This document shows positions 537 through 64,000 of a stretch of 64,000 nucleotides of DNA, piece by piece. Numbering within the stretch: position 1 is the first letter of the stretch; the number at the start of each line of letters is the position of its first letter. The stretch is taken from NCBI RefSeq assembly GCF_003003795.1, contig NZ_PVWK01000083.1, positions 62,001 to 126,000 on the forward strand, given 5' to 3'. The position numbers were made by a program, and so were the translations under genes. Below the pieces are notes generated by a model, which did not search any database, was not told where the DNA came from, and saw only the letters and a program-made list of their open reading frames with translations. The DNA comes from Stenomitos frigidus ULC18 (GTDB taxonomy: Bacteria > Cyanobacteriota > Cyanobacteriia > Leptolyngbyales > Leptolyngbyaceae).

Positions 537-578
537 GAGAAGTAAGGGGTGAGTTTTGAGTTTTGAGTTTTGAGTTTT

Positions 579-616
579 GAGTAGCACTTCGTGCCGCTAC
601 GCTAGAGAGTTTTGAG
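579..616. repeat. 38-bp dispersed hairpin repeat, copy 1
   Basis: This repeat lies between potD and potB inside a run of TTTTGAG direct repeats (about 551-620). It has a TAGCACTTCGTGCCGCTA core that can fold back on itself. Near-identical copies in the opposite orientation lie at 27267-27304 and 58986-59022, all flanked by AACTCAAAAC-type repeats. Confidence 0.7.
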
Positions 617-18958: not shown

Positions 18959-19106
18959 AGCAAAGCGGTCAGCAGTCAGTGTTCAGCGGTCAGCTTTACA
19001 TTCAAGTATCGTGGATTTACGTACTGCTGCTTTTCCGTTCTGATAGTAAATGCTTTATCTTCTGAAAATTGCTTCTACTTCCAGGCTGATAGCTGACCGC
19101 TGATCG
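18959..19106. repeat. Inverted STRR-type repeats between convergent genes
   Basis: The gap between the DUF937 gene and metF starts with AGCGGTCAGCAGTCAG-type heptamers and ends with the complementary GCTGATAGCTGACCGCTGA. The whole segment could therefore fold into a long imperfect hairpin between the two convergent genes. Confidence 0.6.
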
Positions 19107-27266: not shown

Positions 27267-27304
27267 CTCAAAACTCTCTAGCGTAGCGGCGCAAAGCGCT
27301 ACTC
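27267..27304. repeat. 38-bp dispersed hairpin repeat, copy 2
   Basis: It reads CTCAAAACTCTCTAGCGTAG then CGGCGCAAAGCGCTACTC, the reverse complement of copy 1 with a few substitutions. It sits between the TPR gene and mutM. Confidence 0.75.
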
Positions 27305-27332
27305 AAAACTCAAAACTTTCATCCTTCATCTT

Positions 27333-28313
27333 TTAGCCTTTCTTCAGCTTCTGGCACGTTGGACAAAAGTGTGCCGATCGCCCTGCCATTCTAAGGCGTT
27401 CGATCGCGCTTGTACAATTGCGGCAACTATCACCATCACGTCCATACACCCAGGCAGACCCGCCATAGTTACCATTCACGCCCGCTACACTACGGAATGT
27501 CCGAAACGTGGTGCCCTTTGCCTCAATGCTGGCTTGGAGTACCTGGACGATATTCGATCGCAGTCGTTTGATTTGGGGCTGGCTGAGATGAATGCAGAGT
27601 GTTTGGGGATGAATGCCGCTCAGAAAGAGTGCCTCATCGGCATAGATGTTGCCAATGCCAGCGACGATCGTCTGGTCCAGTAGCGCATTTTTGATGGGGC
27701 GACGACGCTGGAGTTGTTGAGTCAGGTAGGCAACCGAAAACTCCTCTGCAAACGGTTCTGGGCCGAGCTGCTGCAAGCCTGTGATAATTTGCTCCGGCGC
27801 ATTCTCTGGAGGCACCCACCACATCTGCCCAAACGTGCGCTGATCCACAAAGCGCAATTCTTTACCATCGCCAAAGAATAGCCGCACTCTCGTATGTTTT
27901 TCCAGTGGTTCGGTTTGGTCTACCCACAACAGTTGACCTGTCATGCGGAGGTGCACGCCGAGCCAGCTAGAAGTGTGAGGTGTGAGGTGTGAGGTGTGAG
28001 GTTTAAGAGAGTAAGTGGCGTAGGGAGAGGCGGCGATCGGGCGATCAGGAAATGTAAGAACGTTAGTTTCCCCGTTGCTAACCGCTGACTGCTGATAGCT
28101 GATAGCTGATTTTTCCAACTCCGCCAACAAATACTTGCCGCGTCGATGCCATTGGACGATCGCGCTTCCCTGCAAGCCCGTCAAAAAATCTGGCACTGAA
28201 AAAGGGTGGGCGATGGTGCGGTCAAGCAACACATCTCCACCCTCAATTGTTTGATGCAGGGTTACGTCATTTAAACCCCGCCGAACAGTTTCAACTTCGG
28301 GCAATTCAGGCAC
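27333..28313 (-). CDS. mutM: Formamidopyrimidine-DNA glycosylase with an STRR-derived insert
   Basis: This base-excision repair enzyme removes oxidised purines. The catalytic Pro2-Glu3 are present (MPELPEVETVRRGL), as are GIGNIYADEALF and a C-terminal zinc finger with CRNC and CPTC pairs. At 326 residues it is about 50 longer than usual. The excess is a segment near residues 68-118 (KSAISYQQSAVSNGE to LTPHTSSW), encoded by GCTGATAG and GTGTGAG repeats. The insert falls before LGVHLRMTGQLLW, in a surface loop of the N-terminal domain. The frame is kept, so the enzyme may still work. Confidence 0.92.
   Translation of the reverse strand: MPELPEVETVRRGLNDVTLHQTIEGGDVLLDRTIAHPFSVPDFLTGLQGSAIVQWHRRGKYLLAELEKSAISYQQSAVSNGETNVLTFPDRPIAASPYATYSLKPHTSHLTPHTSSWLGVHLRMTGQLLWVDQTEPLEKHTRVRLFFGDGKELRFVDQRTFGQMWWVPPENAPEQIITGLQQLGPEPFAEEFSVAYLTQQLQRRRPIKNALLDQTIVAGIGNIYADEALFLSGIHPQTLCIHLSQPQIKRLRSNIVQVLQASIEAKGTTFRTFRSVAGVNGNYGGSAWVYGRDGDSCRNCTSAIERLRMAGRSAHFCPTCQKLKKG
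27971..28005. repeat. STRR heptanucleotide array inside mutM
   Basis: The heptamer GTGTGAG is repeated about four times in tandem within the mutM coding sequence and encodes TPHTSHLTPHTS-like residues. GCTGATAGCTGATAGCTGA repeats lie nearby at about 28087-28110, also within the gene. Confidence 0.8.
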
Positions 28314-28385
28314 AGGATGCTGTAAATCCTAGACAATGGACTCCAGTTTAGCGTCCCTTGTCCCTTGTCTGAAGCCCAAGCCAAT

Positions 28386-28760
28386 CTATCTTGCTTCAGT
28401 ACCCTGATTAGCATCACCTTCAACGCCACCGCTACCGCCAGGAGCATCTGCTGTCTGGGCAGGAGTTGCGCCTCCAGCCACTTCTGCAGCGCCACCTGTT
28501 TTGCGGATGCCAGCTTCAATCGGTGTTTGCTTCCCGCCGGATGCTGCTTTGCCGCCTGCTTTCTTCGAAGGTGGTGCCACTTCAACCACTTCACTGGCAG
28601 CAAAGTTGTTGGTGTTGACACCAGCGTAGTTAACTTTATCGAAGCGAACAATGACGGAGTATTTGATACCGCTCTGATCGATCGACGCAACTGTCCCATA
28701 GTCTTGGAACCAGTAAGACTCTTTGCGAAGAATTTTGACTTTAGAACCGCGCTGAACCAT
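28386..28760 (-). CDS. psaE: Photosystem I reaction centre subunit IV with C-terminal extension
   Basis: PsaE is a peripheral stromal-side subunit of photosystem I that helps ferredoxin docking and cyclic electron flow. The SH3-like core is clear ([58 protein letters not shown]) over residues 1-66. The remaining 58 residues are a Gly/Ala/Pro-rich tail ([15 protein letters not shown] to [11 protein letters not shown]) not present in the usual 65-75-residue protein. It is a single gene between mutM and cruG. The tail resembles the flexible extensions seen in some cyanobacterial PSI subunits. Confidence 0.93.
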
Positions 28761-28941
28761 GAGTGTTATTCCCTCTTATTGTTAAGCTTCAACTCATACA
28801 GCTTTATTGCCCTTAACTTTACTACGAACACAAGACACATTCAGCGCGGGTGTCAGAGGTTGAAACAATCTGAAATATTTCGAGTAGCCATTAGTGGTCA
28901 GCGGTCAGCGGTTAGCCCGTATAGAGTTTCCGCGCTGCCAC

Positions 28942-28980
28942 TCCCTACTCCCTACTCCCTACTCCCCACTCCTCACCCCA
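28942..28980. repeat. STRR heptanucleotide array (CTCCCTA)
   Basis: CTCCCTA occurs in tandem about three times and then degenerates to CTCCCCACTCCTCACCCC just beyond the end of cruG. GGTCAGCGGTCAGC repeats precede it at about 28895-28915. Confidence 0.8.
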
Positions 28981-30146
28981 TAATTCCTGCCTCTCCACTG
29001 TTTAGGTGTTTGGATTGAAGACAAGAAAATCCTGAGTACCGCGATCGGGTCTGCAAGGGGAGAGAGCCAGAAAAGCCAGGCAGAGTTTGACTGAGTACGA
29101 TCGCAGGATGGGGCGATCGCAAAGTTGAGTCCGATGCGGATTAGCACCAGTAACAGGTTTAGGCTAAAAGCAGCGAGAGTGGTTAGGGTAGCAGTGCCGC
29201 CAAGGACATGGCTCAATAGCAGTAGCACGATCGGGATTGGTAACCCCTGTACTGCCAACAACAGCAGCCAATCGCCCCAAATTTGACTGGGGGAAGCGGC
29301 ATCCTTGAGGTCGAGCGATCGCCCCCATTCGCGCCATGTTTCGGCAGCCCCTTCATACATCCGCACCTTCAGCACGTTGGCGCCATCCAAAAAGGCAACT
29401 CTGCCACCTTGCGCCGCGATCGCCCGCACCAGGGTGACATCATCACAGAACGATCGGCGCGCCACTGTGTAACCGCCTATCTGAACTAGCTGCGATCGGC
29501 GGCAAAAAAAGCACTGCCCGTTTGCCATCACCCGCTCTGGCCGATTTTCGGTTTCGCCTGCTGGCCCAAAGCGATAAACCAGAGTCATCAAAAGAGCTGG
29601 ATGGAGCAGCAATTCGCCTGGATATTTAAGCAGGAATTGTGGTGCGAGTGAAATCAAGTCATAGCCTTCGTCCAAGGCCGTCGCCAGCAGACTCGCAACC
29701 AATCCGGGTTGTGGCTGAGTATCGGCGTCGATGCCCAACACCCAATCACTTTTCTCAGCACTGGACAAAAACCCGTGATGCAGTGCCCACGGACGACCGA
29801 CCCAATCACTGGGTAACGGGTCATCATTCATAAGGCGGAAGCGTGGGTCGGCTTGCTGGGCTGCTTTGACTAAAGCGGGAGTGCTGTCGCTGGAATGACT
29901 ATCCACAACCAGAATTTCTCGCACTTCATAGCTTTGACGGCTAAGCCCAACAAGACAGGGCGTCAGGCGCTCTGCCTCGTTCAACGTCGGAACCACAATA
30001 CTCACCGTACCCAACTGCTCAGGGGTGGGGGCTTTGGGAAGCAGTGGCGGATAGCGGCCAGGGCCACGCAATAAACGGGAAAGCAGAATCGCGATTGCTG
30101 GCAGTTGCGCCAGAAGTAGCCCTAACAACAAGGCGTCTCTACTCAC
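28959..30146 (-). CDS. cruG: Carotenoid 2'-O-glycosyltransferase, CruG-like
   Basis: This 395-residue protein is a family 2 glycosyltransferase with an N-terminal anchor and C-terminal membrane helices. Motifs include VSIVVPTLNEAERLTPCLVG, ILVVDSHSSDSTPALV, the DxD-type GIDADTQPQPG and ARRSFCDDVTLVRAI. CruG attaches the sugar to myxol. The neighbouring cruF ends at 30143, so the start of this gene overlaps its stop as ATGA, showing translational coupling. The assignment rests on this pairing as well as on the GT2 fold. Confidence 0.85.
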   Translation of the reverse strand: MSRDALLLGLLLAQLPAIAILLSRLLRGPGRYPPLLPKAPTPEQLGTVSIVVPTLNEAERLTPCLVGLSRQSYEVREILVVDSHSSDSTPALVKAAQQADPRFRLMNDDPLPSDWVGRPWALHHGFLSSAEKSDWVLGIDADTQPQPGLVASLLATALDEGYDLISLAPQFLLKYPGELLLHPALLMTLVYRFGPAGETENRPERVMANGQCFFCRRSQLVQIGGYTVARRSFCDDVTLVRAIAAQGGRVAFLDGANVLKVRMYEGAAETWREWGRSLDLKDAASPSQIWGDWLLLLAVQGLPIPIVLLLLSHVLGGTATLTTLAAFSLNLLLVLIRIGLNFAIAPSCDRTQSNSAWLFWLSPLADPIAVLRIFLSSIQTPKQWRGRNYGVRSGE

Positions 30147-31535: not shown

Positions 31536-32747
31536 TTAGTCAGAACTGGAAGCCAGCGCGCTGGGCTGATAGCAGATGCCTGCTTGCTTGAAGCGTCGTA
31601 GGGCTTCTCCCAGACGATCGCAGTCAGCAATCAAGCTAATGCGAACATAGCCTTCACCACCACTGCCAAAAGCGTTACCGGGCGTAACCACCACACCGGT
31701 TTCTTGCAAAACAGAGAGCGCAAAATCTGTAGAACCGATGCCAGGAGGACATTCAACCCAGAGATACATCGTGGCACTGGGTTTGGGCACCGTCCAACCT
31801 AGTTCGGCAAGCCCTTGAATCAAAAAATCACGACGGGTGCGATAGCGAGCCTGTACTTCGTGTAAGTAGACATCGGGAAGTTGCAGTGCCGTTTCAGCAG
31901 CGGTTTGCAGAGCCGCAAAAATGCCGTAGTCCAGGTTTGTCTTCAGCGTGCGTAAGCCCTGCACAATGTGGCGATTACCAACCACAAAACCGACCCGCCA
32001 ACCTGCCATATTGTAGGTCTTGGAGAGGGTATGAAACTCTACCCCAATCTCCTTGGCACCAGGAATTTCGAGCAAGCTGGTGGGCTGGTAACCGTCGAAG
32101 GCAAGCTCAGCGTAACAAAGGTCGTGCACTAGCAGAATTTCGTAGTGACGGGCAAAGGCGACAATTTCTTCAAAAAACTCGCGAGGGGCAGTTGCAGCGG
32201 TGGGATTGCTAGGGTAGTTGAAATACAGGATTTTTGCCTGCTGGGCGATCGCTTCAGGAATGGCTGTTACATCAATCAGCCAGCCGTTTTCTGGTTTAAG
32301 TATCAAGCTATGAATGGTTGCTCCCGCAATCAGCGGCCCCCGGAAGTGTGCCGGGTAGGCAGGGCTGGGTACCAACACCACATCGCCAGGATTCACATAG
32401 GCCAGTGCGAGATGTGTCAATCCTTCTTTAGACCCCAACAGCGGCAGTGCTTCGCCTTCGGGGTCTAGCTTGACGTTGTAGCGGCGGTAATACCAGTCCG
32501 TAATCGTACGCCGGAAGCTTGCGGTTCCTTCAAACGGTGGATAGCCGTGATTAGCCGGATCTTGTAAGGCCGCGATCGCCGCTTCCACCACTGGGGTTGG
32601 GGTTGGTCCATCCGGGTTACCCATTCCCAGATCAATCAGATCCAATCCTTGCTCCCTGGCACGTACTTTGAGTTCATCCAAACGAGCAAAGACGTAAGGA
32701 GGCAGCGATCGCAGACGATCGGCAGGCTTAAGCCAATCTAAGGTCAT
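31536..32747 (-). CDS. Class I/II PLP-dependent aminotransferase
   Basis: This 403-residue enzyme is close to aspartate or LL-diaminopimelate aminotransferases. It has the PLP-binding Lys in TLSKTYNMAGWRVGF, the substrate-binding NYPSNPTAATAP and LVHDLCYAELAFDGY, and the N-terminal LGMGNPDGPTPTPVVEA. The start overlaps the stop of the upstream dehydrogenase as ATGA, so the two are translated as one unit. The substrate is not certain from sequence alone. It begins only about 20 bp beyond the tRNA, on the opposite strand. Confidence 0.88.
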   Translation of the reverse strand: MTLDWLKPADRLRSLPPYVFARLDELKVRAREQGLDLIDLGMGNPDGPTPTPVVEAAIAALQDPANHGYPPFEGTASFRRTITDWYYRRYNVKLDPEGEALPLLGSKEGLTHLALAYVNPGDVVLVPSPAYPAHFRGPLIAGATIHSLILKPENGWLIDVTAIPEAIAQQAKILYFNYPSNPTAATAPREFFEEIVAFARHYEILLVHDLCYAELAFDGYQPTSLLEIPGAKEIGVEFHTLSKTYNMAGWRVGFVVGNRHIVQGLRTLKTNLDYGIFAALQTAAETALQLPDVYLHEVQARYRTRRDFLIQGLAELGWTVPKPSATMYLWVECPPGIGSTDFALSVLQETGVVVTPGNAFGSGGEGYVRISLIADCDRLGEALRRFKQAGICYQPSALASSSD

Positions 32748-33976
32748 GCCGTCACCTCATTGGTAGAGTGAGGGGCGAGGGGTGAGGGGTGAGGGGTATG
32801 GCTTATGCCCTCTTCGCGGTGTGGGTGAGAGGCTGGTTGTTCACTCCTCTCTCCTCTCTCCTCTCTCCTGACCTCTTTTGCTGTTGTTGACACCATTGCT
32901 GCCATCAGTTGCGCTGTTTCTACTGCAAAGGGGAGACGGTGAATATCGGAAGACTCAGCACACGCGATGGCTGCCGCTTGCTGTAAGTCAGCGATCGACA
33001 CAGTTGTAAGGCCCAGATCATCAAGGCTTTGAGGCAAGCCAATCTCGCCGTAAAACTTCAAGAGCTGCTGGCGGGAAGTCGCAGCTAACTGGTTACCTTG
33101 CACAATTTCTTCTAACCGCAGCTGCACCAAAATACCATAAGCGACTTTCTCGCCGTGCAAAGTATCGTGGCTAGCAAGCAGATTGGTCAAGCCATTGTGA
33201 ACCGCGTGAGCAGCAACGGTACGGCATTGGGCACCACCCAAGCCACCAATCACGCCAGCAAGTAGCACGGTAGCATCCACCACTTCTTGCCAGGTTTGGC
33301 CACCCGGTTCCTCAAGGGCAAGCGCCGCCTTCTGAAACAAAATATCACGCAACACTCGCGCCTGCTGCACCGCTGCAATGATCAGGGTTTGCTGCGAATG
33401 ACCACTGCTGACCGAGGCTTCATACCACTTGGCGATCGCGTCACCAATGCCCGCAACCAATGTCCGCCGGGGGGCCGTTTGCACCAGGTCATAATCCAGT
33501 ACGAGCAAATCAGGGCAGCGCACAAGCGCCACATCATACTGAAACGCGCCTTGGTCAGAATAGACATTGGAAAGCGCTGTCCAGGCGGCACAGGTTGCGG
33601 CTGAAGTCGGGATCGTGACGATGGGTAGCTGCTGGTAGTAAGCCAACAGTTTGGCGGTATCCAGCGCTTTACCACCGCCAATGCCGATGACAACATCGGC
33701 ACAATGCTGCTTAGCCGCCTTGATCAGGGTGGCTAGCGTCGTCTCGCTGCAATCAGGGCTATAGGACATCCAGGCAGTCTGGAGGGCTTCGCGCTCTAGG
33801 GCTGGCTGCAACTGCGGTTGCATGGTTGCCAGGGTATGGTTACCGCCAATCACGAGCGGCCGCTGCCCCAACTGCACGATCGCGCCACCCACCTGAGCCA
33901 ACAACCCGTGACCGCGTAATACCTGTGCTGGAGCGATCGTAAGCGGGGGTTGAAACGCAATGTTTGAATGAGACAT
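32744..33976 (-). CDS. Iron-containing alcohol dehydrogenase family (glycerol dehydrogenase-like)
   Basis: This 410-residue protein has the dinucleotide-binding GIGGGKALDTAKLLA and the following TIPTSAATCAAWTALSNVYS of the glycerol-1-phosphate/glycerol dehydrogenase group, and His residues for the metal (VAAHAVHNGL, LASHDTLHGEKVAYG). The catalytic domain ends near residue 365 (STTAKEVRREE). The last 45 residues are low complexity (SHPHREEGISHTPHPSPLA) and come from CTCCTCT and GTGAGGG heptamer repeats. It is the first gene of a coupled pair with the aminotransferase. The natural substrate is unknown. Confidence 0.85.
   Translation of the reverse strand: MSHSNIAFQPPLTIAPAQVLRGHGLLAQVGGAIVQLGQRPLVIGGNHTLATMQPQLQPALEREALQTAWMSYSPDCSETTLATLIKAAKQHCADVVIGIGGGKALDTAKLLAYYQQLPIVTIPTSAATCAAWTALSNVYSDQGAFQYDVALVRCPDLLVLDYDLVQTAPRRTLVAGIGDAIAKWYEASVSSGHSQQTLIIAAVQQARVLRDILFQKAALALEEPGGQTWQEVVDATVLLAGVIGGLGGAQCRTVAAHAVHNGLTNLLASHDTLHGEKVAYGILVQLRLEEIVQGNQLAATSRQQLLKFYGEIGLPQSLDDLGLTTVSIADLQQAAAIACAESSDIHRLPFAVETAQLMAAMVSTTAKEVRREERGERSEQPASHPHREEGISHTPHPSPLAPHSTNEVTA
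32768..32875. repeat. STRR heptanucleotide tracts in the 3' end of the dehydrogenase gene
   Basis: GGTGAGG-type heptamers (32768-32800) and CTCCTCT-type heptamers (about 32845-32872) lie within the last 45 codons of the dehydrogenase gene. Confidence 0.75.
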
Positions 33977-39508: not shown

Positions 39509-40588
39509 ATGGAGACGAAGGAGCTAACGGTGGAAGAAACGGAACAAGGGACAACGAGCACGGTGCAGGCAGGTGGAGACGTCGCGATTGCAGGCGCATG
39601 TGTCGGCACAGAAAACGCTACGGGCTCTCTCGCCACCGAGCAACCAGCAGACCTCATAGCTACGCCCCAAACCTTGCCGACGCTAGAAGGGCTTTGGCAG
39701 CTAACGCTGGATTGGCAGCCTAACGCACTACAGCAAGCGCAATTCCAGCAGCTTTACACCTTGATTCTGGCAGGCAATCATCAGTTCAATCTCACCCGCA
39801 TTACAGAGCCAACGGAGTTTTGGGAGAAACATCTGTGGGATTCGTTGGTGGGATTGAAGGCGTTTTTACAAGCGGTCAGCGGTCAGGAAGCGGTCAGCAG
39901 TCAGCAGTCAGCAGTCAGCAGTCAGGAGGCAGAGGTCAGCGGTCAGCAGTTAGCGAGCAGCCAGCAGCAGTCAGGAGTCAACGGTCAGCACACCGCAGAG
40001 CGGAAGCAGGCTACAGCGGTCAGCGGTCAGCTGGAAGCAGAGGGTAGAGCGGATGCTGACCTACCGCCAATTTCAAAAGCGCCCTTCAAGGCGATCGACA
40101 TTGGCACAGGTGCAGGTTTTCCGGGTCTTCCTGTCGCGATCGTGCAACCAACGTGGGCAGTCACCTTGCTGGATTCAACGCGCAAGAAAATGACGTTTCT
40201 AGACCATGTGCTTGCCACCATGGGGTTGACCAATGCCATGACGTTAGCGGAACGGGTCGAGCAGGTCGGGCGGCAGAAGCACCAGCGTCAAGCATATGAT
40301 TTGGCATTTATCAGAGCGGTGGCAACAGCCACTGTGTGTGCGGAGTACGCGCTACCGTTATTGAACATCGGTGGTCGTGCGGTGCTCTATCGGGGACAAT
40401 GGACAACCGACGAAATGACTGCTTTGGAAGGGGCTGCTGCGCAACTGGGAGGCGCGATCGAGACCGTTGAGTCTTTTATAACGCCATTAACCCACAGCGT
40501 GCGCCACTGCATCATTTTGAAAAAAGTTGCCCCGACACCGACAGCCTTTCCACGTGCGGTCGGTGTACCAACGCAGAACCCGCTTTGA
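39509..40588 (+). CDS. rsmG: 16S rRNA (guanine527-N7)-methyltransferase with STRR-encoded insert
   Basis: RsmG/GidB methylates G527 of 16S rRNA. The SAM-binding motif DIGTGAGFPGLPVAIVQP and the following LLDSTRKKMTFLDHV and AFIRAVATATVCAEYALPLL are intact. The protein is 359 residues, over 100 more than usual. One excess part is the N-terminal Thr/Glu-rich leader (residues 1-57). The other is an insert of about 60 residues (near 128-190) rich in Gln, Ser and Val (VSSQQSAVSSQEAEVSGQQ), encoded by AGCAGTC heptamers. It lies between the substrate-recognition helix and the SAM fold. The methyltransferase core looks complete. Confidence 0.93.
   Translation: METKELTVEETEQGTTSTVQAGGDVAIAGACVGTENATGSLATEQPADLIATPQTLPTLEGLWQLTLDWQPNALQQAQFQQLYTLILAGNHQFNLTRITEPTEFWEKHLWDSLVGLKAFLQAVSGQEAVSSQQSAVSSQEAEVSGQQLASSQQQSGVNGQHTAERKQATAVSGQLEAEGRADADLPPISKAPFKAIDIGTGAGFPGLPVAIVQPTWAVTLLDSTRKKMTFLDHVLATMGLTNAMTLAERVEQVGRQKHQRQAYDLAFIRAVATATVCAEYALPLLNIGGRAVLYRGQWTTDEMTALEGAAAQLGGAIETVESFITPLTHSVRHCIILKKVAPTPTAFPRAVGVPTQNPL
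39876..40035. repeat. STRR heptanucleotide array inside rsmG
   Basis: About 20 heptamers of the AGCAGTC/AGCGGTC type run through this part of rsmG, at first perfect (AGCAGTC repeated four times near 39893-39920) and then degenerate. Three heptamers make 21 bp, so the frame is preserved. Confidence 0.85.
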
Positions 40589-55346: not shown

Positions 55347-55802
55347 AAAAAAACTCCGTAAACGCTGAAGCGATACTGACGAATGACACGTATTGAGCGA
55401 TAGCAAAAAATCGGTTCTCCCTTGAGCGGTTGTCTAACGCTCAACGAGAATGGGTGATGCAACCGTGGCGTGTGTGTAACCTGATGACTCGGTTGCGATG
55501 GCAACGCCATTAAGCAATTAGGTATATTGACCGCAAAACGGTGACTTTGTTCCCAGAACGTTTGATTCATCTAGACTGAACCTGCCCTAAGATTCCCAAT
55601 AAAAGGCAAAAAGCGATATGACACCAGTGATTGCTTGGGGGAGTCATGGGGTTGGGAGGTGGGGGGTAGGGTATCGGGTGTTGTGAATGCGAAGGCAAAC
55701 GGCTGTAGGTTCTCGCGATCGCATTCTCAATGTTCTCAATGTAGACGGTTGCACTACTATCTTTTCGTGGCGCGTTCTGAAGGCAAGCAGTCGTGCCCAG
55801 AA
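55347..55802. other. Intergenic region before the first 21-bp array
   Basis: This 450-bp region lies between the SLH gene start and the first 21-bp array. It has no supported gene. A degenerate unit may already begin at 55782, whose last bases match the array consensus. Confidence 0.5.
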
Positions 55803-56201
55803 CTCGGAACGCCGAGCCTGGAACTCGACACTTGCACCTTTGACCTCGAAATATCGAGCTTAAACCTCGGAACGCCGAGCTTGGAACTCGACGGTTGCAG
55901 TTCAACACTCGAAACGCCGAGCCTGGAAGTCGATGGTTGCAGTTTAGAACTCGGAACATCGAGCTTAAATCTCGGAACGCCGAGTCTGGAACTCGATACG
56001 TGCGGTTAAGAACTCGACGCATCTTGACTCAAGCAAAAAAATTGGTGTTTAAAGTGCGATCGTTCTCCCTCGAAACAGAACGGTTCCCACTGAAAATAGG
56101 AACTATCTCGTTCAAAACAAAAATAGCCTCACTTGAAACAGAACGGTTCTTGTTTAAAGCGAGAACAGTCTCACTCAGAATAGAATCATTGCGACTTGAA
56201 A
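55803..56201 (+). repeat. 21-bp minisatellite array 1 (19 units)
   Basis: Cutting the sequence every 21 bases from 55803 aligns all units with no gaps. The first eleven units start CTCG or GTCG and most follow CTCGGAACGCCGAGC plus TTGGAA; the later eight are diverged (CAGAACGGTTC plus CACTTGAAA types). The plus-strand reading is a heptad S-L-E-L-x-x-x (LGTPSLELDGCS and so on), but stops occur in units 10 and 11, so no single protein spans it. Many units contain CTCG and CGAG half-sites able to form small hairpins. It ends 80 bp before the NACHT gene. Confidence 0.9.
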
Positions 56202-61747: not shown

Positions 61748-62062
61748 GAGGCTCCGAACCTCGCTGACGAGCCTTTGGAACCCAACAATGAGTCTTTGAA
61801 CCTCGCTGACGAGTCTTTAGGACTCGATAATGGGTGTTGAAGGCTCACTGACGAGTGTTGGAGACTCGCTAATGAGTCTTTAGGACTCACTGACGAGTAT
61901 TGGAGAGTCAACGACGAGTGTTTGGCACTCAATCACGAGTATTAGAGACTGGCTGACGAGGATCAGAAACTCATTCACGAGTATCAGAGACTCATTCACG
62001 AGTATCAGAGACTCGCTGACGAGTGTTGAAGACTCATTCACGAGTATCAGAGACTCATTCGC
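61748..62062 (+). repeat. 21-bp minisatellite array 2 (15 units)
   Basis: From 61748 the sequence divides into 15 consecutive 21-bp units without gaps, each beginning GAG (one GGG). Common forms are GAGTATCAGAGACTC plus ATTCAC and GAGTCTTTAGGACTC plus GCTGAC. The plus-strand frame gives heptads E-S-L-x-L-x-D (ESLNLADESLGLDN). The unit is related to array 1 (both have T-T-G-R-A-A/C-C-T-C at the same phase). GACTC and GAGT half-sites in each unit allow small hairpins. A degenerate unit follows to 62080. Confidence 0.9.
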
Positions 62063-62134
62063 GAGTGTCTGAGGTGCGTGCGTGCGGTGTGCAGGTGCGG
62101 CGAGGAGGGTTTGCAGGTGGCTGGCGAGGAGGAG

Positions 62135-62262: not shown

Positions 62263-64000
62263 TTAGTTGCTGTTCTCAGATGCAAGTTTCGATCGCAACC
62301 CTTCAAGGTTTTCACGCCGACTAAGCGTTTTAGGGTGGTTCTCACCCAGTAGCCGATTACCCATTTCCAGCGCCTGTACATATAGCGGTTCGGCTTCGCT
62401 GTAGCGTCCCTGTGACTCATAGAGATATGCCAGGTTGTTAAGGCGTGTTGCCACTTTGGGATGGTCTTCTCCCAGCAGCCGTTTGTCCATTTCCAGCGCC
62501 TGCAGGCAAAGCGGTTCGGCTTCGCTGTAGCGTCCCTGTGACTCATAGAGATATGCCAGGTTGTTGAGACTGGTTGCCACATCGGGATGGTCTTCTCCCA
62601 GCAGCCGTTTACTCATCTCCAGCGCCTGCAGGCAAAGCGGTTCGGCTTCGCTGTAGCGTCCCTGCGATGCGTAGAGATTTGCCAGGTTGTTAAGGCGTGT
62701 TGCCACTTTGGGATGGTCTTCTCCCAGCAGCCGTTTGTCCATTTCCAGCGCTTGCAGGTAGAGCGGTTCAGCTTCGCTGTAGCGTCCCTGCGATTCGTAG
62801 AGGGATGCCAGGTTGTTAAGGCGTGTTGCCACATCGGGATGGTCGTCACCCAGCAGCCATTTGCTCATTTCCAGCGCCTGCACGTACAGCGGTTCGGCTT
62901 CGCTATAGCGTCCCTGCGAGTCGTAGAGAGATGCCAGGTTGTTGAGGTCGGTTGCCACAGCAGGATGGTCTTCTCCCAGCAAACGTTTGTTCATTTCCAG
63001 CGCTTGCAGGTACAGCGGTTCGGCTTCGCTATAGCGTCCCTGCGATTCGTAGAGTAATGCCAGGTTGTTGAGACTGATTGCCACATCGGGGTGGTCTTCA
63101 CCCAGCAGTCGTTTCCTCATGTCTAACGTTCGTAAGTAGAGCGCTTCGGCTTTGCTGTAGTTGCCCTGATCCTTGTAGAGTAGACCGAGCCAACCCAGGC
63201 TATCTGCCAGGTCTATCTCCTGTCCCAGTTCGGTTTGTAAGTCTGCGGCTTTTTGGAAGTAGCCGATCGCTTCTCCCATCTCCTGCTGATAGTCGATCGC
63301 CTCTCCTCGTTGCAGCCTGCCTGCATAGATTTGTCCCATCTGGCTATACAGGTTTGCCAGCAGGGGGTCTTTAGGCTGGTTTGCCTCCGTTTGGGCAATC
63401 AGCGCTTTCAGATCTTCCAGGGGCAGCAGGTGATCGTCGTCTGCCGATAAGTTCAAGTCGTCGAGGACGGGACGGATTGCCTCAATCTGGCTGCTTCGCA
63501 CCGCACCCGATTTCCGCGAGGTGAAGCGAAACACGCCTTTGCGCCAGCTCCAGAAGTCGGGGGCATGGCGTGCCAACTGTCCCAAAAGCTGGTGCGTCAC
63601 CCAGAGGACGATGGGGAAGTGAAAGTCGCGCAATGCCTCCCGCGTCCACTGGAGGTAGCCGAAGAAAATCTCTTGCTCGGAGCGTTCCTCGCCCAGCTTG
63701 AGGAAGAAAAGCTGCTCGGTTCCGGTGATGGTGACAACCGCTCTACCGCCATTGCGGAGATACTCGTCGTCCTGGACTTTCGCTCGGATGGTCTGGGTGA
63801 GGCTGGGTTCGACACGCTGAATCGGTAAGCGATAGTTGCGGATGTCAGGGGCGAGTTCGGCTTCGTAGCGGCTGATGATGTCGTCCCGCAGGCGGCTGTC
63901 ATCGCAGACGGCAAGCAGCAGGCTCAAGGTGCCTTCGCCAGCTTCAATGCTGACGATCAACTCGTCGTAAGCCTCTTCGTTTTGCTCGTCGGGGTCTACC
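62263..64000 (-). CDS. Kinesin-light-chain-type TPR protein (5' end cut by window)
   Basis: The frame is open to the right edge, so the start is outside the window; the apparent TTG start at 63960 is internal (…EAYDELIVSIEAGEGTL). The N-terminal ~190 residues seen form an alpha/beta module with LLLAVCDDSRLRDDIISRYE, AVVTITGTEQLFFLKL and FPIVLWVTHQLLGQLARHAP, of a kind recurrent in cyanobacterial STAND-like proteins. From about 63190 down to 62320 come seven 42-residue TPRs (SLNNLALLYESQGRYSEAEP). No Walker motif is visible in the part present. Function is unknown; signalling or defence scaffold is inferred. Confidence 0.85.
   Translation of the reverse strand, partial: VDPDEQNEEAYDELIVSIEAGEGTLSLLLAVCDDSRLRDDIISRYEAELAPDIRNYRLPIQRVEPSLTQTIRAKVQDDEYLRNGGRAVVTITGTEQLFFLKLGEERSEQEIFFGYLQWTREALRDFHFPIVLWVTHQLLGQLARHAPDFWSWRKGVFRFTSRKSGAVRSSQIEAIRPVLDDLNLSADDDHLLPLEDLKALIAQTEANQPKDPLLANLYSQMGQIYAGRLQRGEAIDYQQEMGEAIGYFQKAADLQTELGQEIDLADSLGWLGLLYKDQGNYSKAEALYLRTLDMRKRLLGEDHPDVAISLNNLALLYESQGRYSEAEPLYLQALEMNKRLLGEDHPAVATDLNNLASLYDSQGRYSEAEPLYVQALEMSKWLLGDDHPDVATRLNNLASLYESQGRYSEAEPLYLQALEMDKRLLGEDHPKVATRLNNLANLYASQGRYSEAEPLCLQALEMSKRLLGEDHPDVATSLNNLAYLYESQGRYSEAEPLCLQALEMDKRLLGEDHPKVATRLNNLAYLYESQGRYSEAEPLYVQALEMGNRLLGENHPKTLSRRENLEGLRSKLASENSN
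62317..63190. repeat. 126-bp tandem repeats encoding the TPR units
   Basis: The landmark TAGCGTCCCTG recurs every 126 bp (62401, 62527, 62653, 62779, 62905, 63031) with a diverged seventh unit near 63157. The DNA units are almost identical, so they have been homogenised or recently expanded. Confidence 0.9.

Follow-up and report, generated by a model that had tools for sequence, protein, structure and literature searches.

Heptanucleotide repeat arrays within the reading frames of rsmG and other housekeeping genes of Stenomitos frigidus ULC18

The rsmG gene and its insert

The window, the whole stretch of 64,000 nucleotides of the Stenomitos frigidus ULC18 genome that was analyzed (contig NZ_PVWK01000083.1, positions 62,001 to 126,000), contains on its plus strand (39509 to 40588) an open reading frame (ORF) of 359 amino acids that was assigned to the 16S rRNA (guanine527-N7)-methyltransferase family, RsmG, from profile matches. 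The translation scored 151 bits against Pfam GidB (PF02527; cutoff, 27) and 143 bits against TIGR00138 (cutoff, 99.5). Both profiles aligned in two stretches, with both halves of the protein matching the family, and in the alignment the SAM motif DIGTGAGFPG (residues 197 to 206) and the invariant RsmG columns were intact. A variable linker of 83 amino acids (residues 114 to 196; 39848 to 40096) separates the KHLWDS helix from the DIGTGAGFPG strand and contains a degenerate array of GTCAGCR heptamers and their relics at approximately 39875 to 40039, recognized with TRF and by identity at a lag of 7. The TRF core (39889 to 39990) comprises 14.6 copies with 77% matches (score, 102), and the array includes four consecutive perfect units. 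Lag-7 matches were found at 103 of 153 positions (67%) of 39876 to 40035 versus 28% in shuffled sequence; over 20,000 shuffles the mean was 42 matches and none exceeded 66. The array had the top lag-7 score among the 160-base pieces of the window, taken in 5-base steps. The AGCAGTC-type repeats that the initial annotation placed within rsmG are confirmed as a degenerate AGCAGTC/GTCAGCR array in an intact reading frame. The insert had also been said to encode 55 to 60 Gln, Ser, and Val residues, which is too many; its 160 bases make 52 complete codons, 28 of which specify these amino acids (12 Gln, 11 Ser, and 5 Val).

RsmG/GidB proteins of known structure (PDB 3g88, 1xdz, 1jsx, and 7cfe) share both fold halves, the SAM motif, and the invariant columns, but their halves are connected with almost no linker, whereas the Stenomitos protein has approximately 70 additional residues separating the helix from the first core strand. 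In the comparison with 3g88, for example, the two matched pieces are nearly contiguous in the chain of the solved structure (residues 74 and 76), whereas the query jumps from residue 117 to residue 187, with the array DNA within the skipped part. An AlphaFold2 model built from a 34-sequence alignment had block-mean pLDDT values of 45 to 67 for residues 121 to 190, compared with 85 to 93 for residues 61 to 120 and 87 to 98 from residue 191 on. Because the region of low pLDDT is flanked by confident parts, the model suggests that the insert is probably a disordered loop joining two intact parts of the enzyme.

The same linker was surveyed at 131 loci, of which 125 could be parsed between the anchors, giving 114 unique linkers. 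The linker is 14 to 20 amino acids long in many cyanobacteria and 42 to 64 amino acids long in six same-genus genomes. Periodicity was scored against codon shuffles in the 63 linkers that reached 75 nt, and a clear period of 7 (z of at least 4.9) was found in seven: the linker in the window, four from the same genus (L032, L033, L034, and L035), and two others (L117 and L029). Arrays were also recognizable by eye in the RsmG linker of Tolypothrix campylonemoides (L052; lag-7 z, 3.2). The units vary among these linkers and include GTCAGCR, AGTCAGA, AGGCAGA, AAAACTC, AAAATTC, CACACCC, and CTCCCTC. Neither L031, a record of Tildeniella nuda and the closest relative, nor L036 had a clear array in the RsmG linker. 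The nearest RsmG relatives belong to records of Tildeniella, Stenomitos, Leptolyngbya, and Lyngbya, consistent with the cyanobacterial hosts of STRR (tandem heptanucleotide) arrays. A comparison of rsmG in relatives had been proposed at the outset, with a conserved insert of the same sequence in distant cyanobacteria named as the contrary case; no such insert occurred among the 114 unique linkers. The suggestion that a heptanucleotide STRR has spread into rsmG without breaking it therefore appears to hold at the level of the reading frame, given the open frame across the insert, the family match of both halves, and the other heptamers, or none, in relatives.

Heptamer arrays elsewhere in the window and in other genomes

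The initial annotation further stated that these repeats also occupy many of the intergenic gaps of the window. Fourteen GTCAGC-type matches with no more than two mismatches were found, nine in rsmG and two inside mutM. Only the three at 18967, 21639, and 28896 are found elsewhere, and to that extent the statement stands; most of the matches are intragenic, however, and the other arrays have other units. The remaining heptamer arrays use TGAGTTT, GTGTGAG, ACTCCCT, GTGAGGG, and CTCCTCT, and three of them are intragenic too. A mutM/fpg-type ORF of 326 amino acids (27333 to 28313, minus strand) carries two heptamer-derived inserts within one Pfam domain: a C-rich heptamer array (27969 to 28007, minus strand; peptide LKPHTSHLTPHTS) and a short GTCAGC-type relic (28077 to 28111, minus strand; peptide SYQQSAVSN). 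An Fe-ADH-type dehydrogenase ORF (32744 to 33976, minus strand) has two arrays near its C terminus, of GTGAGGG and CTCCTCT units, at its 3' end (32768 to 32872, minus strand). A GTCAGC pair followed by an ACTCCCT array (28896 to 28976, plus strand) is located between genes and overlaps the ORF 28959 to 30146 (minus strand) at its 3' end, and a minus-strand ORF truncated by the window edge has an AAAACTC-type array (548 to 584, minus strand) at its 5' end. Rfam searches across the window found only one tRNA and no family at the rsmG insert.

Long degenerate arrays with periods of 21, 42, 63, and 105, which are multiples of 7, were observed at 55799 to 56019, within a doubtful minus-strand ORF (55567 to 56022), and at 61756 to 62073, outside the listed ORFs. 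A 126-bp tandem repeat (62345 to 63160; 6.5 copies, 86% matches) sits in an ORF of 565 amino acids (62263 to 63960, minus strand) that possibly encodes a repeat protein.

The sample of the same genome comprised 41 stretches (817,243 bp): the window, 22 stretches selected for GTCAGC hits, and 18 further ones. It contained 98 arrays with a period of 7 and 0 to 2 arrays with each of the periods 4, 5, 8, 10, 11, 13, 16, 17, 19, and 20. The sequence AGTCAGCAGTCAGC occurs at 42 exact places in the genome (overlapping ones counted) versus 1 for the reversed control. As in STRRs, then, a 7-nt unit is repeated in tandem and one unit is dispersed at many genomic places; 24 of 33 intragenic arrays in this genome share their unit with other arrays sampled. 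Arrays were found in 31 ORFs of at least 150 amino acids, a few of which, for example 28365 to 29015 in the window, are probably not genes. An RsmI-type ORF (L152:8474-9448) was excluded from the hosts because it starts with arrays and its true start may follow them. Pfam was searched with 20 of the 30 array-bearing ORFs besides RsmG, and all 20 matched known families, among them MutS, MutS2, ClpC, DnaX, PutA, PheT, PyrD, TrpE, MutM, ABC ATPases, AnmK, and an ArsA-type ATPase. In several hosts a single Pfam domain (ABC_tran, DHO_dh, Fapy_DNA_glyco, AnmK, or B3_4) is split by the insert.

In the 419 kb not selected for GTCAGC hits, which includes the window, 6 of 26 clusters were strictly intragenic (4 of them in the 355 kb of the 18 other stretches) and 10 more had coding DNA on one side. 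Scaled to 7 Mb, this small-sample figure gives an estimate of approximately 80 to 100 in-frame inserts per genome. Arrays were found at 7.0 and 9.4 per 100 kb in stretches of the Stenomitos genome not selected for hits. In relatives, for which 14 to 100 kb per genome was sampled, there were 36.7 arrays per 100 kb in G010, 22 in G001, 19 in G004, 12.5 in G057, 6 to 10 in G002, G003, G005, and G006, and 2.5 in G027 and G030. The 14- to 100-kb samples of G011, G016, G019, G033, G039, G047, G051, and G055 contained no arrays. Beyond the genus, strictly intragenic clusters were present in G010, G027, and G057. The rsmG gene is not special: many other housekeeping genes, both here and in related genomes, contain in-frame heptamer arrays.

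A minus-strand ORF of 1,505 amino acids (L140:9455-13969) consists of two TPR/glycosyltransferase-like units linked by heptamer arrays, and the ORF that follows it encodes a third unit of this kind and also starts with heptamers (families assigned by eye). The array linkers at this locus may fuse neighboring genes.

Shared loops and species-specific units

Eleven loops were aligned in eight genes (RsmG, PyrD, ClpC, MutM, MutS, MutS2, AnmK, and TrpE) from six or seven same-genus genomes, giving 73 gene-by-genome segments; the comparison was confined to the genus, and G004 was omitted for the ClpC, MutM, and AnmK loops because its matches were paralogue-like or split. Heptamer-type segments or peptides were present in most of the 73 segments, with a unit that varied by species. 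In relatives at the family or class level, the PyrD, ClpC, MutM, and MutS loops are mostly short. The 6-mer similarity between inserts in different genes of one genome was 0.160 versus 0.099 for unrelated pairs. When genome labels were permuted within sites, the mean was 0.108 and the maximum was 0.135, with none of 2,000 permutations reaching 0.160. Adjacent coding DNA, analyzed as a control, had no such species dialect at k = 6 (279 of 2,000 permutations) or k = 7 (922 of 2,000), though a slight effect was seen at k = 5 (33 of 2,000). The signal came from G000, G001, G005, and G006, with little or none in G002, G003, and G004. Similarity at the same site across genomes (0.181) was as high as that within a genome; thus, common descent or constraint at the site also has a part in shaping them. 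From these comparisons of sequence, we infer that occupation of the loop sites predates the divergence of the species and that the units were replaced later within each genome.

Neighboring arrays also tend to follow an order. Counted in one orientation, GTCAGCR units preceded AAAACTC units 9 times versus 0 for the reverse, GTCAGCR preceded C-rich units 7 times versus 0, and AAAACTC preceded C-rich units 5 times versus 1. The typical layout has GTCAGCR or purine-rich units at the 5' end, AAAACTC in the middle, and pyrimidine-rich units at the 3' end, which might point to one composite element or copying process that acts on many proteins at once. All 63 segments of at least 75 nt (of the 73) had a purine-to-pyrimidine polarity. 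However, this polarity is weakened as evidence because the loops of relatives outside the genus, most of them without arrays, lean likewise (29 of 41 for PyrD, ClpC, MutM, and MutS and 68 of 100 for RsmG, ties omitted), as do 61 of 88 noncoding clusters. The polarity may therefore partly reflect loop context and carries no weight in the interpretation given here.

The persistence of the loops could be taken to mean that disordered inserts are useful, for example in binding, crowding, or regulation, and were favored rather than merely tolerated. Same-genus genes keep a long segment at most of the compared loops, and this includes G003, whose segments, although mostly degenerate, were retained even though its 14-kb sample has one array. 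However, the sequence of the inserts is not conserved between species and instead tracks the heptamers of its own genome, and identical units occur elsewhere, as for the 24 of 33 intragenic arrays mentioned above. We consider selection for the linkers unlikely, though the least improbable of the alternatives to an invasion by tolerated repeats.

Reading frame and alternative explanations

The reading frame was evaluated with a hexamer coding model applied to 150 nt on either side of each cluster, leaving the array itself unused. Among 134 clusters (77 from the Stenomitos genome and 57 from relatives), 46 with one-sided coding were set aside and 56 had coding DNA on both sides on one strand. 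If frame were left to chance, approximately one-third of clusters would be expected to be in frame; 40 of the 56 were in the same frame and open. The 16 exceptions were inspected by eye, with no family search: 14 were gene junctions, where one gene ends and another starts, and 2 were ambiguous (L203 and L140:9542-9823, the latter between two tandem TPR-type ORFs, where it could mark a broken gene instead of a junction). All 59 counted intragenic arrays were stop-free on the sense strand, which is a condition for being called open, and 29 of the 59 would contain stops if reversed. In G010 the mutS gene is divided into two ORFs (L278), with the frame open through the heptamer insert and disrupted a few codons beyond it, close to the Walker A motif. 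A break caused by the gene's own repeat was rejected, because the frame is lost just past the insert and not within it; the loss is possibly a sequencing error or a broken mutS.

The arithmetic of a 7-nt unit accounts for the irrelevance of the entry frame. Because 7 leaves a remainder of 1 on division by 3, a one-base shift in an array is equivalent to a one-unit shift. Whichever of the three frames of a strand is read, the product is therefore one and the same seven-residue cycle. For example, GTCAGCA encodes a VSSQQSA cycle, and its opposite strand contains TGA. An array that is stop-free in one frame is thus stop-free in all three, so that only orientation and total length modulo 3 count. 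Stops and orientation were discussed earlier by MacGregor for the TAACTGA repeat, in the accessible part of that paper (PMC4679880).

A unit length that is not a multiple of 3 also means that gain or loss of one unit shifts the frame, and the arrays could therefore be contingency (phase-variation) loci at which slippage by one heptamer switches RsmG and the other enzymes between ON and OFF states within a population. The four perfect consecutive units of the rsmG array are in keeping with this. However, all 40 resolved intragenic clusters across genomes (with the 2 ambiguous ones aside) were in the ON state and the OFF frame was not seen, the degeneracy of the rsmG array (77% matches) hinders slippage, and the hosts are housekeeping enzymes with inserts mostly in midprotein. 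It is very unlikely that the arrays serve as such switches.

It is less likely still that the insert is removed at the RNA level or bypassed by the ribosome to yield a protein that lacks it. The location of the inserts within conserved enzymes is the sole point in its favor. Removal or bypass would require neither a length in multiples of three nor the absence of stops, yet both were found in all 40 resolved intragenic clusters; moreover, the intragenic arrays do not fold and no Rfam family is present. Folding was evaluated for 127 of the 134 clusters (classified segments of 80 to 400 nt), and the mean z was +0.36 in 39 intragenic clusters, −0.71 in 88 others, and −0.26 in 60 random pieces. 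A hairpin model for the intragenic arrays was rejected, with folding z values near zero. Outside genes there were strong folders with z near −5 (L171:15599-15644, L159:5800-5833, L160:8128-8176, and L174:16662-16823), and in several strong-folding clusters GTCAGC-type units are followed by GCTGAT-type units. These strongly folding nongenic clusters are possible terminators or stem-loops. Assembly or sequencing artifacts or decaying pseudogenes can practically be dismissed, because, although repeats are difficult to assemble and many relatives are represented by MAGs, a like pattern with other units occurs in same-genus and distant genomes, including the isolates Leptolyngbya sp. FACHB-321 and T. 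campylonemoides VB511288, and the host ORFs match their families well.

Origin of the inserts and related repeats

The rsmG insert is very probably an STRR array within the linker that is read through to give a loop without fixed structure, and it is one of an estimated 80 to 100 or so inserts of this kind in the genome; the loop would be flexible and disordered. A repeat that is normally intergenic appears, from the sequences compared here, to have become part of many proteins. In the proposed course of events, a cyanobacterial STRR array would enter the rsmG linker; a stop-free unit would enter a gene in whichever frame, with orientation and length modulo 3 deciding the outcome, and selection would retain only stop-free, in-frame inserts in surface loops. 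The loops would be translated and tolerated. The sites may already have been occupied in the ancestor of the genus, with units later replaced genome-wide by copying between arrays, through mobility or conversion, beyond what local slippage alone would produce. It is possible, and we propose only tentatively, that the heptamers form a spreading system suited to coding DNA, with a period coprime to 3 and stop-free units that enter any frame, in which dozens of loops are rewritten together into a species dialect, a concerted evolution of protein loops by a DNA repeat.

STRRs are regarded chiefly as repeats of intergenic regions or RNA loops, and genes would be expected to be cleared of long simple repeats with a unit length not divisible by three. 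Vioque in 1997 reportedly described STRR sequences within the RNase P RNA gene, and Elhai in 2008 is said to have treated small repeated elements, with Mazel in 1990 named alongside. In the P6b loop of the tRNA-Leu intron, heptanucleotides pair into a hairpin, according to the available text (PMC3488679). The arrays of the RNase P RNA gene and P6b, as far as the accessible sources describe them, are like those in rsmG in being degenerate tandem heptanucleotides, variable in copy number and tolerated in a variable loop of a functional gene, but their hosts are RNAs, with a hairpin in P6b, whereas the hosts here are proteins and the intragenic arrays are unfolded. In Nostoc sp. PCC 7120, 89 GGGGA(C/T)T repeats, 68% of them intergenic, are reported in the available portion of the paper (PMC4692102); they are similarly dispersed genome-wide with a large minority within genes, but that text emphasizes under-representation in coding DNA and G-quadruplexes, in contrast to the frames, protein positions, and unit replacement considered here. 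TAACTGA repeats of Beggiatoaceae, cyanobacteria, and Bacteroidetes are alike in that orientation sets their stop content and that tolerance in coding sequence is discussed, but in the accessible part of that study most of those in the principal genome examined precede start codons, and they are proposed regulators, whereas the genome-wide set of in-frame enzyme inserts belongs to the present genome (PMC4679880). Rickettsia palindromic elements are also in frame in many unrelated metabolic and housekeeping genes, typically in unstructured segments. However, in the portions of the sources available they are palindromic, approximately 150 bp long, and encode a conserved peptide, whereas the inserts described here are short tandem heptamers with a peptide that varies by species (PMC10969869 and PMC2996958). 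The present inserts thus share with the Rickettsia elements the in-frame position in many unrelated protein genes but neither the hairpin nor the conserved peptide. STRRs, STRRs in the loops of RNA genes, intragenic heptamers of Nostoc (PMC4692102), and in-frame repeats of Rickettsia (PMC10969869 and PMC2996958) are already known, as described in the accessible parts of these papers. The literature searched, which covered few subscription papers, yielded no description of STRRs in frame across the enzymes of cyanobacteria or of their entry into many enzymes with species-specific turnover.

Many housekeeping-type enzymes carry in-frame heptamers that are rewritten at the same loops in sister species. 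They provide a natural series for studying the invasion of coding sequence by repeats, the tolerance of enzymes for a disordered insert, and the homogenization of repeats across a genome. They also call for caution in annotation, as cycles such as VSSQQSA, KTQNSKL, and HTPHPTP are repeat-derived peptides and not domains.

A second dispersed sequence accompanies some of the heptamers. The partly palindromic element GGCGCAAAGCGCTA lies directly 5' of AAAACTC heptamers at 27288 to 27311 in the window and at 56 other places; with no more than two mismatches it was found at 57 places in the genome versus 0 for the reversed control. It was present in all seven same-genus genomes, and some copies are in frame inside ORF arrays, for example in the rsmG gene of G006 and at L140 and L156.
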